Assembly: GCF_001375555.1 (NCBI RefSeq) | Contig: NZ_CTDZ01000009.1 | Location: 3,527,758 to 3,591,757, forward strand | From: Numidum massiliense | GTDB lineage: Bacteria; Bacillota; Bacilli; Thermoactinomycetales; Novibacillaceae | Length of the DNA: 64,000 bases | Direction of reading: 5' to 3' | Shown here: positions 2,834 through 18,810 of the stretch, in pieces | Layout of the letters: the number at the start of each line of letters is the position of its first letter | Numbering within the stretch: position 1 is the stretch's first letter | Notes under the pieces: generated by a model | Databases searched by the model: none | Seen by the model: the letters and a program-made list of their open reading frames with translations, nothing else | What the model was told of the DNA's origin: nothing | Program-made: the position numbers and the translations under genes

Positions 2834-3949
2834 ATGGAGACGCAGCAAACGTTTCGTCCCGGGCTAGAAGGCGTCATTGCGAGTGAGACACGCATTTCTT
2901 ACCTCGATGTCGCCGGTGAAGAAATCGTTATTCGTGGTTACGACTTAATTGAACTGGCGAAGAAAGTGTCGTATTTAGACGTCGTCGCGCTCATACTCGA
3001 CGGCGCCTTACCGTCAGACGAGGTGCGGGAGAAGCTTGCCCAAAGCTTGCAAGCCGAGTACGAACTGCCGGAAGCGGTTTTGACCGTACTTAAGTCACTG
3101 CCGCCAGAAACGCACGCTATGGACGGCCTTAGGACAGGCATTTCCGCGCTGGCAGGCTTCGACCGTGACCTTGAAGACCGTTCCGCAGAAGCTAACAGGC
3201 GTAAAGCGATTCGGCTATTAGCGAAGGTACCGGCGATTGTCGCCAACAGTTATCATTTAAAAGAAGGGCACGCCGCCGTCACACCGCGCCAAGATTTAGC
3301 GTACAGCGCCAACTTCTTGTACATGATTACTGGTCAAGAACCGAGCGATGCGGAGCGGTGGGCGTTTGAACAGTCGCTCATCGTCTACAGCGAACACGAA
3401 ATGCCCAACTCGACCTTTGCGGCACGCGTCATCGCTTCGACACAGGCTGACCTTTACGGCGCGTTGACTGGTGCCGTCGCTTCGCTCAAAGGAACACTGC
3501 ACGGCGGCGCGAATGAAGCGGTGATGAAAATGTTGCTCGAAGCGAAAACGAAAGAGAACATCGAGCCGCTCATCTTGCAGAAGCTGGCCAACAAAGAACG
3601 GATTATGGGCTTCGGACACCGCGTCTACATGCGTAAGATGGATCCCCGTGCGGAGTTAATGAAGGAAGCACTCGTCAAACTGGCCGCGGAAAAAGATGCC
3701 GGGGAGCTGTTTGAAATGTGCGAGATCGGGGAGCGCGTGATGCATCGCGAGAAAGGACTGTACCCGAACCTCGACTACTACGCTGCCCCAGTTTACTATT
3801 TGTTAGGGATTCCGATCGAGCTGTACACGCCGATTTTCTTAGCGGCGCGCACAGTCGGCATCGCGGCGCACGTCAGCGAACAGCACGACAACAACCGTTT
3901 GTTTCGACCGCGCGTCAACTATTTAGGACCGCGTAACTTGCACCCGTAA
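2834..3949 (+). CDS. prpC: 2-methylcitrate synthase / citrate synthase
   Basis: The 371-residue product matches MmgD/PrpC-type citrate synthases (about 372 aa). These condense oxaloacetate with propionyl-CoA (or acetyl-CoA) to methylcitrate (or citrate). The N-terminal FRPGLEGVIASETRIS block, LHGGANEAVM and GFGHRVYMRKMDPRA carry the expected active-site histidines. An ATG at 2798 also has a purine-rich stretch upstream, but ATG 2834 follows AAAGGAGAG with 6-nt spacing and gives the family N-terminus, so I chose it. The next two genes encode methylcitrate dehydratase and methylisocitrate lyase, which favours the methylcitrate role (mmgD-mmgE-yqiQ order in B. subtilis). The C-terminus NYLGPRNLHP is slightly unusual. 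Confidence 0.9.
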   Translation: METQQTFRPGLEGVIASETRISYLDVAGEEIVIRGYDLIELAKKVSYLDVVALILDGALPSDEVREKLAQSLQAEYELPEAVLTVLKSLPPETHAMDGLRTGISALAGFDRDLEDRSAEANRRKAIRLLAKVPAIVANSYHLKEGHAAVTPRQDLAYSANFLYMITGQEPSDAERWAFEQSLIVYSEHEMPNSTFAARVIASTQADLYGALTGAVASLKGTLHGGANEAVMKMLLEAKTKENIEPLILQKLANKERIMGFGHRVYMRKMDPRAELMKEALVKLAAEKDAGELFEMCEIGERVMHREKGLYPNLDYYAAPVYYLLGIPIELYTPIFLAARTVGIAAHVSEQHDNNRLFRPRVNYLGPRNLHP

Positions 3950-16470: not shown

Positions 16471-16570
16471 GTTTACAATAAGGGAGAACGCAAGTTTAGT
16501 AACATATTAAAGGAGCCATTCCTGTAATGAATTAATTTGAGGTTTGCACAAAAAAAGTGCCTCCAGTAAG

Positions 16571-16619
16571 CTTGGGTTAGAATGTAGCGCTACACTCATT
16601 CATCCCAAGGCAAAAGGAG
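16571..16619 (+). other. Structured leader just upstream of the IS110 transposase
   Basis: CTTGGG (16571-16576) pairs with CCCAAG (16614-16619) around a perfect 12-bp palindrome at 16583-16594. It ends 3 nt before AAAAGGAGA, the transposase ribosome binding site, so it could limit translation. Confidence 0.5.
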
Positions 16620-16627
16620 ACACTCAC

Positions 16628-17923
16628 ATGAAGTATAAGATGAAACAGAAGAAAAATCAACGCATTTTACGCATGACCGAAAAAACCTTAATCGTTGGGG
16701 CAGACATTGCCAAGCAGACACACGTCGCTCGTGCGATCGACTTTCGGGGGATCGAACTCGGAAAAGACTGCGTGTTCGAGAATACGCACCAAGGGCTAAC
16801 CAAACTGGTGAAGTGGATGAAGGACTTAAAACAGGTTCACAACAAAACAGATGTGCTGTTTGGCGTTGAACCAACTGGACACTATTGGTTTCCTTTAGCG
16901 GCATTTTTAAAAGAAGAAGGCATCAAAGTCGTTGTGGTTAACCCACATCATGTCAACCGAAGTAAAGAGTTGGAAGACAACTCACCGACGAAAAACGACT
17001 ACAAAGATGCCAAAGTGATCGCGGATCTTATCCGCAACGGTCACTACGCTGAACCGAAGTTCCCGACACAGGTTTATGCCGATTTACGGATCATCATGAA
17101 CCTGCGAGAAAAAGTAATGGTGAACTTTAATCAAGCAAAACTGCGTATTCAGAACTGGCTAGACCGCTTCTTCCCTGAGTACCATCAAGTGTTTAAAGAC
17201 TGGGAAGGCAAAGCATCGCTAATGACCTTGCGTGAATTTCCAATGCCCAATGAGATTGTCGCTTTAGGCGCCGAAGCCATTCTCAAGCATTGGAAATCGG
17301 AAGTGAAGCGGGCTGTCGGGATAAAGCGCGCCGAGAAGTTGGTGAAAGTAGCGACAACTTCTATCGGGCTTACAGAAGGCATGTATGCCGCGAAGATTGA
17401 ATGTTCGATGCTGCTAGATCAGTACACCTTGTTAGCTGACCAACTAGAAGAGATCATGCGGCAAGTGGAGCAACTGCTTGAGAAAATCCCCGGTACCGAA
17501 GCAATGATGACCATTCCCGGTGTGGGCATTGTCACACTCGCTGGTTTTCTAGCAGAAGTGGGTGATTTAAATGACTACGACCACGGGCAACAAATCATCC
17601 GCTTGGCGGGGTTGAATCTCAAAGAGAATAGCTCAGGCAAGAAGAAGGGGAAAGCGAGTATTAGTAAACGAGGACGTGCAAGGTTACGTGCCCTGCTATT
17701 CCGATGTGTCCTCCCGATGGTCGCTAAAAATGCCGAGTTTAAAGCGATGCATCGTTACTACACGACACGTCGTCACAATCCCCTGAAAAAGAAGCAATCG
17801 CTTATTGCCCTATGCTGCAAACTGATCAAAGTTCTGCATACGCTCGGTACGAGGCAGATTGCGTATGATGCGAAGGATGTTCTGGGTCCAGTGCGCCAGC
17901 AACAGTTACAGATGGCTGCTTAA
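16628..17923 (+). CDS. IS110-family DEDD transposase
   Basis: A 431-residue recombinase. The N-terminal RuvC-like DEDD domain shows VGADIAKQTH (Asp), FGVEPTGHYW (Glu) and DYKDAKVIADL (Asp). The C-terminal transposase_20 domain shows IPGVGIVTLAGFLAEVGD and GKASISKRGRARLRALLF with the conserved Ser. Both are complete, so the enzyme may be active. ATG 16628 follows AAAAGGAGA; an in-frame ATG further upstream has no ribosome binding site. IS110 enzymes are known to work with a structured non-coding RNA from the element flank that pairs with target and donor DNA. Confidence 0.93.
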   Translation: MKYKMKQKKNQRILRMTEKTLIVGADIAKQTHVARAIDFRGIELGKDCVFENTHQGLTKLVKWMKDLKQVHNKTDVLFGVEPTGHYWFPLAAFLKEEGIKVVVVNPHHVNRSKELEDNSPTKNDYKDAKVIADLIRNGHYAEPKFPTQVYADLRIIMNLREKVMVNFNQAKLRIQNWLDRFFPEYHQVFKDWEGKASLMTLREFPMPNEIVALGAEAILKHWKSEVKRAVGIKRAEKLVKVATTSIGLTEGMYAAKIECSMLLDQYTLLADQLEEIMRQVEQLLEKIPGTEAMMTIPGVGIVTLAGFLAEVGDLNDYDHGQQIIRLAGLNLKENSSGKKKGKASISKRGRARLRALLFRCVLPMVAKNAEFKAMHRYYTTRRHNPLKKKQSLIALCCKLIKVLHTLGTRQIAYDAKDVLGPVRQQQLQMAA

Positions 17924-18170
17924 AACGAATTAGCCAATCGTCGTGTGACCTTAAGTTTTTCCGTAGGGAAGGCAAAGACAACTGAAGCACGGAGTAGCCG
18001 CAGTACAATTTCCATAAGGGCAACGACCCAGTAAGGGAGCAAGAAGCGGCCTCCACCCCTTGAGAGGTAGAACGAAGGAATGTAAGGGCAATAGACCCCG
18101 TGTGACATGGGAGGGTAAACCGCAAGGGTGAAAGTGGAGATCCAGGGTGCGATCATCGCATAATGACTGG
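17924..18170 (+). ncRNA. Candidate IS110 bridge/seek RNA region
   Basis: About 250 nt with no gene follow the transposase stop. The stretch is purine-rich and full of short complementary segments: GCCGC near 17992 with GCGGC at 18046, a CCCGTG/CATGGG hairpin near 18096-18111, and a TGCGAT-C-ATCGCA palindrome at 18148-18160. A 15-nt motif (TAAGGGCAACGACCC at 18015) recurs in near-identical form at 18083, and its start recurs at 18032. Two similarly built loops are what a guide RNA with target and donor loops would show. No promoter or exact ends can be named. The role is inferred from the family. Confidence 0.5.
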
Positions 18171-18339
18171 GGGAATATGGAATTTAGTGTTATTTCTCTG
18201 TTCCCGCACCAAACCCCGATCCCATAAAAACACAGTTATGCACTTATTATCCATCACACTCAAATGTCAAGGGCTGAAATACGGTGAATGAGTGAGGAAA
18301 CACGAGATAAAACTAATTTATAGTGGGAGGAAGTGTCTG
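18171..18339 (+). other. Gap between the IS110 3' region and the peroxiredoxin gene
   Basis: CGCACC at 18205-18210 can pair with GGTGCG at 18146-18151, so the element may extend to about 18210. A TATAGT box near 18320 could be the peroxiredoxin -10, but no good -35 is seen. Nothing else is recognisable. Confidence 0.4.
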
Positions 18340-18810
18340 ATGAGCGTGACCGTTGGTCAACAAGCTCCCGACTTTACGTTGAAAGCTACGGGGGACAAAG
18401 AAACAATTAGTCTGGCCGATTACCGAGGGAAAAACGTCGTCGTGCTGTTCTATCCGTTTGCGTTTAGTCCGGTGTGTACCGATGAGTTGTGCGGTTTAAG
18501 TGACGGTTTATCCGACTACAGTCAATTAGGCGTGGACATCGTTGCGATCAGCGTCGACAGTCCCTTTGCGAACGCAGCGTTTGCAGCCGAGCAAAATATC
18601 CAGTTGCCGCTGTTGAGTGATTTTAATAAAGAGGTGTCGGCTGCATACGGCGTGTTGTACAACTTAGGCGACTTCCAAGGGGTCTCCAAACGGTCTGCCT
18701 TCGTCGTCGATAAAAACGGTGACGTACAGTATGCGTGGTCGTCGGACGATCCGAAGCAGCTGCCCGATTTTGCCGCGATTAAACGCACGTTGGAGCAGTT
18801 GAACGGCTAG
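18340..18810 (+). CDS. Peroxiredoxin (AhpC/TSA, AhpE-like)
   Basis: A 156-residue thiol peroxidase. The thioredoxin-fold start VTVGQQAPDFTLKATG and the active site PFAFSPVCTDELCGLSD are clear; the first Cys (about residue 47) is the peroxidatic one and a second Cys lies five residues later. The C-terminal half contains SKRSAFVVDKNGDVQY. It reduces H2O2 or organic peroxides in the cytoplasm. ATG 18340 has GGGAGG upstream; an in-frame start 16 codons earlier lacks a ribosome binding site. A stand-alone terminator follows at 18911. Confidence 0.88.
   Translation: MSVTVGQQAPDFTLKATGDKETISLADYRGKNVVVLFYPFAFSPVCTDELCGLSDGLSDYSQLGVDIVAISVDSPFANAAFAAEQNIQLPLLSDFNKEVSAAYGVLYNLGDFQGVSKRSAFVVDKNGDVQYAWSSDDPKQLPDFAAIKRTLEQLNG

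Follow-up and report, generated by a model that had tools for sequence, protein, structure and literature searches.

The 64,000-nucleotide stretch of Numidum massiliense DNA analysed here (the window) carries an insertion sequence (IS) of the IS110 family whose 3′ flank, on the evidence of sequence comparison, in all likelihood encodes a bridge/seek guide RNA composed of two homologous domains and directed to Shine-Dalgarno sequences. We read the flank in this way because it holds a covarying two-loop RNA that matches the target flanks and the element ends in register and changes jointly with them. An earlier note on the same DNA had put the flank forward as a candidate bridge/seek RNA and did not see the Shine-Dalgarno sequence as its target; four of the checks that it proposed, namely alignment with relatives, covariance folding, comparison with empty sites and a test of guide–flank pairing, came out in favour of the proposal.

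The element and its transposase are located as follows.
16512–18329, + strand: IS110-family element as inserted, with the GGAG core at both ends (own-genome copy comparison, empty site)
16512–16515, + strand: left GGAG core, common to all copies and single in the empty site
16507–16515, + strand: left target half and core, TTAAAGGAG (left-junction flank; partner of the left target guide)
16628–17923, + strand: DEDD transposase of 431 amino acids (Pfam, NCBIfam and IS621 alignment; D26, E81, D124, D127, S335/S336)

A DNA search of the element's own genome returned five full copies, the window's included, that are identical across 1818 bp, together with a sixth copy that is truncated where its contig ends and a single decayed relic. 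The ends of the element are sharp, since the flanks of the copies diverge outside 16512–18329. One copy (L002) splits an istB-like gene of another mobile element, and its target occurs uninterrupted twice more in the genome, providing two intact empty sites; when its flanks are joined through one GGAG, they agree with the uninterrupted sequence at 404 of 404 bases. Because the empty site has a single GGAG, insertion occurs at GGAG and leaves one GGAG at each end, a short core without a long target duplication, as in IS110 elements. The left noncoding flank (LE) is short, at 116 bp, and the right one (RE) long, at 406 bp, just as the earlier note had described them; the interval that it assigned to the 3′ flank, 17924–18210, holds the RNA and stops about 120 bp short of the right end. 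It was also right in calling the transposase intact: the frame runs from an ATG at 16628 to a stop ending at 17923, contains both the DEDD_Tnp_IS110 and Transposase_20 domains and scores above the cut-off of the NCBIfam model transpos_IS110. In an alignment to IS621 (PDB 8wt6) E81, D124, D127 and the serine are kept; D26 falls outside this alignment and was assigned from the motif VGADIA. Judged by these domains and by its DEDD and serine residues, the transposase belongs to the IS110 family. Two short elements, L075 (868 bp) and L080 (685 bp), have both ends and little transposase, and are possible non-autonomous copies.

The putative RNA of the 3′ flank comprises the following parts.
17985–18156, + strand: conserved bridge/seek RNA region, model R1 of 172 positions (alignment A1, covariation and genome searches; the region limits are the model's)
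17997–18050, + strand: target domain, closed by GCCGC (17997–18001) with GCGGC (18046–18050) (helix 1)
18015–18029, + strand: target-loop cap TAAGGGCAACGACCC, GGG 18018–18020 with CCC 18027–18029 (helix 2, 99.1% paired)
18051–18139, + strand: donor domain, closed by CTCCAC (18051–18056) with GTGGAG (18134–18139) (helices 3–5)
18083–18098, + strand: donor-loop cap TAAGGGCAATAGACCC, a copy of the target-loop cap, GGG 18086–18088 with CCC 18096–18098 (helix 6, 99.1% paired)

The element or parts of it were found at 44 loci from GTDB genomes and in 24 of 100 relatives. In several relatives little of the transposase gene (tnp) aligns as DNA, yet 90–180 bases of the 3′ flank are 73–89% identical. 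Alignment A1, which comprises 38 sequences, supports 24 pairs in six helices, with 97.5% of its cells paired and changes on both sides in 14 of the 24 pairs; no shuffle out of 500 reached any of five measures, and sliding the partners by 1–3 columns reduced pairing to 27–54%. Helix 1 is paired in 97.9% of cells, with changes on both sides in four of its five pairs. Additional pairs given by RNAalifold (51–52/59–60, 97/145 and 104–108/136–139) were excluded from the model as isolated or crossing guide segments. Of 400 genomes of the class searched with the covariance model, 78 contain the RNA, the element's own among them. A scan of the window against Rfam gave no family at the gathering threshold and, near the element, chance-level matches only, and the phage records that were searched held no relative of the RNA. 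The two loops are homologous and share one layout, in which a 5′ guide is followed by a GGG/CCC cap and by a 3′ guide ending in the core. The repeated motif that the earlier note had placed at 18015 and 18083, and had taken for two related loops, corresponds at those exact coordinates to the two caps. Variants of the RNA were also encountered: at L065 (around 3740–3790) it is broken in the donor loop and followed by GCATTCCTGTA, a left-end-like sequence, as would result from insertion of a related element; in the relic (L007:1501–1920; own genome C9:2006733–2007152) an internal deletion took out most of it; and a sub-branch (L140, L141, L153–L157 and L210, in genomes G325, G383 and G155) has the target cap CGACC...GAGTC in place of CGGGC...GACCC. 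This sub-branch was missed by the guide pattern and lies outside the guide statistics.

Within the two loops, the following segments are predicted to act as guides, and two others as their partners at the element ends.
18007–18013, + strand: right-target guide AATTTCC, pairing with the right flank top strand (guide–site permutation test)
18031–18039, + strand: left-target guide GTAAGGGAG, resembling the left flank top strand and core (permutations, natural reprogramming)
18077–18082, + strand: donor guide GGAATG for the left end (complementary to CATTCC)
16517–16522, + strand: left-end donor sequence CATTCC (complementary to GGAATG; changes jointly in L202/L203)
18108–18113, + strand: donor guide TGGGAG for the right end (equals the right end; concordance count)
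18324–18329, + strand: right-end donor sequence TGGGAG with core GGAG (copy comparison, guide concordance)

Guides and flanks were tabulated for 100 regions around RNA copies, with ends set by comparing copies. The left guide (96 sites, 17 guides) matches its site at a mean of 6.57 of 9 positions, against 4.93 when guides are permuted, and the effect persists when only GGAG elements are considered (2.58 of 4 against 1.85); for the right guide (114 sites, 42 guides) the mean is 3.31 of 7 against 2.78 (z = 5.1). None of 5000 permutations reached the observed value in any of these three comparisons. The register of the right guide is specific, slid registers giving z ≤ 2.1. Natural reprogramming is evident in elements in which guide and site alike read CGCTAAG, CGAGGAG, ATAGGAG, CGGGCAG or ACTAGAG. 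On the donor side, which offers fewer independent changes than the target side, 82 of 84 elements have an RNA that agrees with their choice of GGGAG or GAGAG at the right end; at L202/L203, in one genome, the left end CAGTCC is accompanied by the guide GGACTG. By sequence, the RNA has guides complementary to both target strands that covary with the target, and a further set of guides, for the donor, complementary to the ends of the element, both of them properties that define bridge/seek RNAs. The match of TAAGGGAG (18032–18039) to position 16480 is a chance one, as the earlier note suspected, some 30 bp beyond the left end of the element; as the left guide, TAAGGGAG has its true partner in TTAAAGGAG at the left junction (16507–16515).

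The landing site sought by these elements is very probably, to judge from their flanks, the Shine-Dalgarno sequence before host genes, restored at the right edge. Among elements with a GGAG core the majority left flank is AAGGAG, 91 left flanks show almost no departure from GGAG, and the first base of the right flank (+1) is G at 87 of 114 sites. At 78 of 120 distinct sites (65%), a start codon with 40 or more open codons behind it lies 3–12 nt after GGAG; the four intervals that follow give 12–20 of 120 each (10–17%). With ATG as the sole start codon counted, the figures are 57 sites at 3–12 nt and 3–8 in neighbouring intervals. Since the site is a Shine-Dalgarno sequence, the element would land in the leader of a gene and in that gene's orientation, as it does in the window, where the gene behind it, peroxiredoxin-like by eye, starts at 18340.
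18326–18342, + strand: Shine-Dalgarno GGAGG as restored at the junction, with the ATG (18340) of the host gene that the insertion interrupted (sequence, anti-Shine-Dalgarno duplex energies)

Duplexes calculated with the 16S tail have a mean energy of −12.0 kcal/mol for empty sites and −11.5 for right junctions, as opposed to −5.8 for shuffled sites; by this measure the element rebuilds a ribosome site ahead of the following gene. The GAGGAAAT-like sequence at another copy's right end is itself a target (L042, L132, L150), and tandem right ends, insertions into or beside the right end of another copy, are seen at L042:4193–4220 and in the right flanks of L132 and L150.

Several observations weigh against the reading of the flank as a Shine-Dalgarno-directed guide RNA. 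For about one-third of the sites, no start codon is obvious downstream. The guides of the window's element fit their own sites imperfectly: three of the five sites read ..AAGGAG where the left guide reads GTAAGGGAG, and just part of each flank is matched by the right guide. The permutation p-values are optimistic, the sequences being related and non-independent. The folding energy of the 3′ flank is no better than that of shuffles (z = 0.02) and was not used as evidence; in the alignments, the structure exceeds chance by conservation and covariation and not by folding energy. A first alternative is that the flank functions at the level of DNA only, as a set of transposase-binding sites or hairpins recognised as such and with no guide RNA. 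Protein-binding repeats are common in transposon ends and the cap motif is repeated here, but helices that stay paired through changes on both sides, and guides that change with sites and ends in a fixed register, as the binding sites of one protein would not, make this explanation very improbable. Even less credible is a flank acting as a plain untranslated region or as an attenuator, with control of transposase or host-gene expression as its role: the flank is structured and separates tnp from a host gene of the same orientation, but the scan gives no terminator-like site in it, its conservation peaks at the segments matching target and ends, and the host genes behind it are unrelated.

The more serious alternative, which we nonetheless consider unlikely, accepts the guide RNA and regards the Shine-Dalgarno preference as a by-product, with other insertions lost to selection and an A/G-rich guide finding A/G-rich sequence. 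The third of the sites that lack a clear start codon downstream and the own-genome copy inside istB speak for it, and the insertions seen in genomes may be those that survived selection; on the other side, the left guide and core together spell a Shine-Dalgarno sequence, with the near-invariance of GGAG and the predominance of G at +1 noted above, and the same guide is common to elements of many genera. Guide targeting and selection overlap as explanations, and both may act.

Under the guide RNA reading, the target domain would use its 5′ guide to pair with the right half-site on the top strand and its 3′ guide to pair with the left half-site on the bottom strand, while the donor domain would repeat this layout in pairing with LE and RE, both domains sharing the core GGAG. 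The addressed site would be the Shine-Dalgarno sequence AAAGGAGGA, and guide-driven targeting would place insertions at AAAGGAGG. Together, the RNA and the DEDD transposase would align an excised circle, at the point where its two ends are joined, with a site that matches, recombination would occur at GGAG, and the right end TGGGAG|G would restore the ribosome site for the host gene. The ends, the empty site, the conservation and covariation of the RNA, the covariation of guides with targets and ends, and the Shine-Dalgarno preference are read from the genomes; from them we infer transcription and processing of the RNA, binding by the transposase, the circle intermediate and a low cost to the host gene.

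The left flank of the element adds a further candidate trait.
16544–16572, + strand: promoter-like boxes TTGCAC, 17 bp, TAAGCT (sequence and left ends of relatives; absent from the promoter scan list)
16556–16564, + strand: 5′ arm of a predicted leader hairpin in read-through transcripts, able to pair with the tnp ribosome site (minimum-free-energy fold; unpaired probability of the Shine-Dalgarno sequence against shuffled leaders)
16616–16624, + strand: 3′ arm of the leader hairpin, GGAGACACT, containing the tnp Shine-Dalgarno (same evidence)

In relatives the promoter-like boxes read TTGAAT/TATACT or TATGCT, and next to theirs the −10 box here, TAAGCT, is the weaker one; the stretch between the boxes of these relatives is complementary to the tnp ribosome site. 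The promoter and terminator scan gave no excess over shuffles, and a by-eye look for a promoter across the circle junction found nothing convincing. Over 53 leaders, the mean unpaired probability of the tnp ribosome site is 0.07 in read-through transcripts and 0.40 with an internal start, and shuffling the first 36 nt raises it from 0.07 to 0.40. By eye, the two arms change together. RNAalifold returned no consensus structure (energy 0) for the left-end alignment, so the hairpin rests on single-sequence partition functions, the shuffle control and these by-eye changes. Formed solely in read-through transcripts, it would keep tnp silent, which would suit an element that always lands sense-wise in transcribed leaders. 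Protection from read-through is known from IS10 and IS50.

Taken as a whole, we somewhat favour the view that the element represents a widespread Bacilli branch of IS110 in which the RNA reads the Shine-Dalgarno sequence, the right edge rebuilds it and the leader hairpin silences tnp on read-through, three linked traits that, if true, let the element live before active genes. RNA-guided IS110 elements and the targeting of translation signals by IS900 are already known, and we found no open-access paper on a ribosome-site target of a Bacilli IS110 element, subscription papers, preprints and ISfinder lying outside the search. The analysis adds a bridge-RNA family absent from Rfam, with visibly duplicated loops; since these come with many naturally reprogrammed guides, the guide rules become readable from sequence. 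It also offers a guide-level account of how an IS, as was already known of IS900, comes to choose ribosome-binding sites, and points to a way in which such an element could spare the genes it precedes.

IS621 and other IS110 elements use a bridge RNA with separate target and donor loops (Durrant 2024, PMC11208160). The present element resembles them in its DEDD transposase, its noncoding RNA, its target and donor loops of two guides each and its short shared core, but its RNA lies in RE and theirs in LE, its guide order is reversed relative to the IS110 order in PMC11187229, its transposase has 431 amino acids against 328 in IS621, and its core is GGAG. In many IS1111 bridge RNAs potential donor-binding bases lie in a multiloop (Durrant et al., PMC11208160), which resembles the donor domain of this RNA. 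Like the seekRNAs of the IS1111 elements ISEc11, ISPa11 and ISKpn4 (Siddiquee 2024, PMC11187229), the RNA lies downstream of tnp, is naturally reprogrammed and carries the top-strand complement (18007–18013) before the bottom-strand match (18031–18039); unlike them, it has, besides the target loop, a loop specific for the donor whose homology to the target loop is plain to see. IS1111 transposases have 330–350 amino acids, and IS1111 elements bear perfect or nearly perfect subterminal inverted repeats of 11–13 bp (PMC11187229). The transposase here is longer, and the best repeat of that type, ATGAATTAATTT/ATAAATTAGTTT, matches at 10 of 12 positions and is equalled in 37 of 300 shuffles. Filing the element as IS1111 was rejected on these two grounds: it mixes IS110 and IS1111 traits, and the IS1111-like character suggested in the earlier note applies to the position of the RNA and the guide order and not to transposase length or repeats. 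The nearest parallel in target choice is IS900, an IS110-family element of Mycobacterium avium subsp. paratuberculosis, which according to PMC8141618 (citing Doran 1997) targets translation initiation signals through the motif CATGNNNNNNTCTCCTT, a Shine-Dalgarno-like stretch with a start codon on the other strand. Compared with that description, in which the motif takes in the start codon, the element studied here inserts inside the Shine-Dalgarno sequence, leaves the spacer free and rebuilds the site with its own end.
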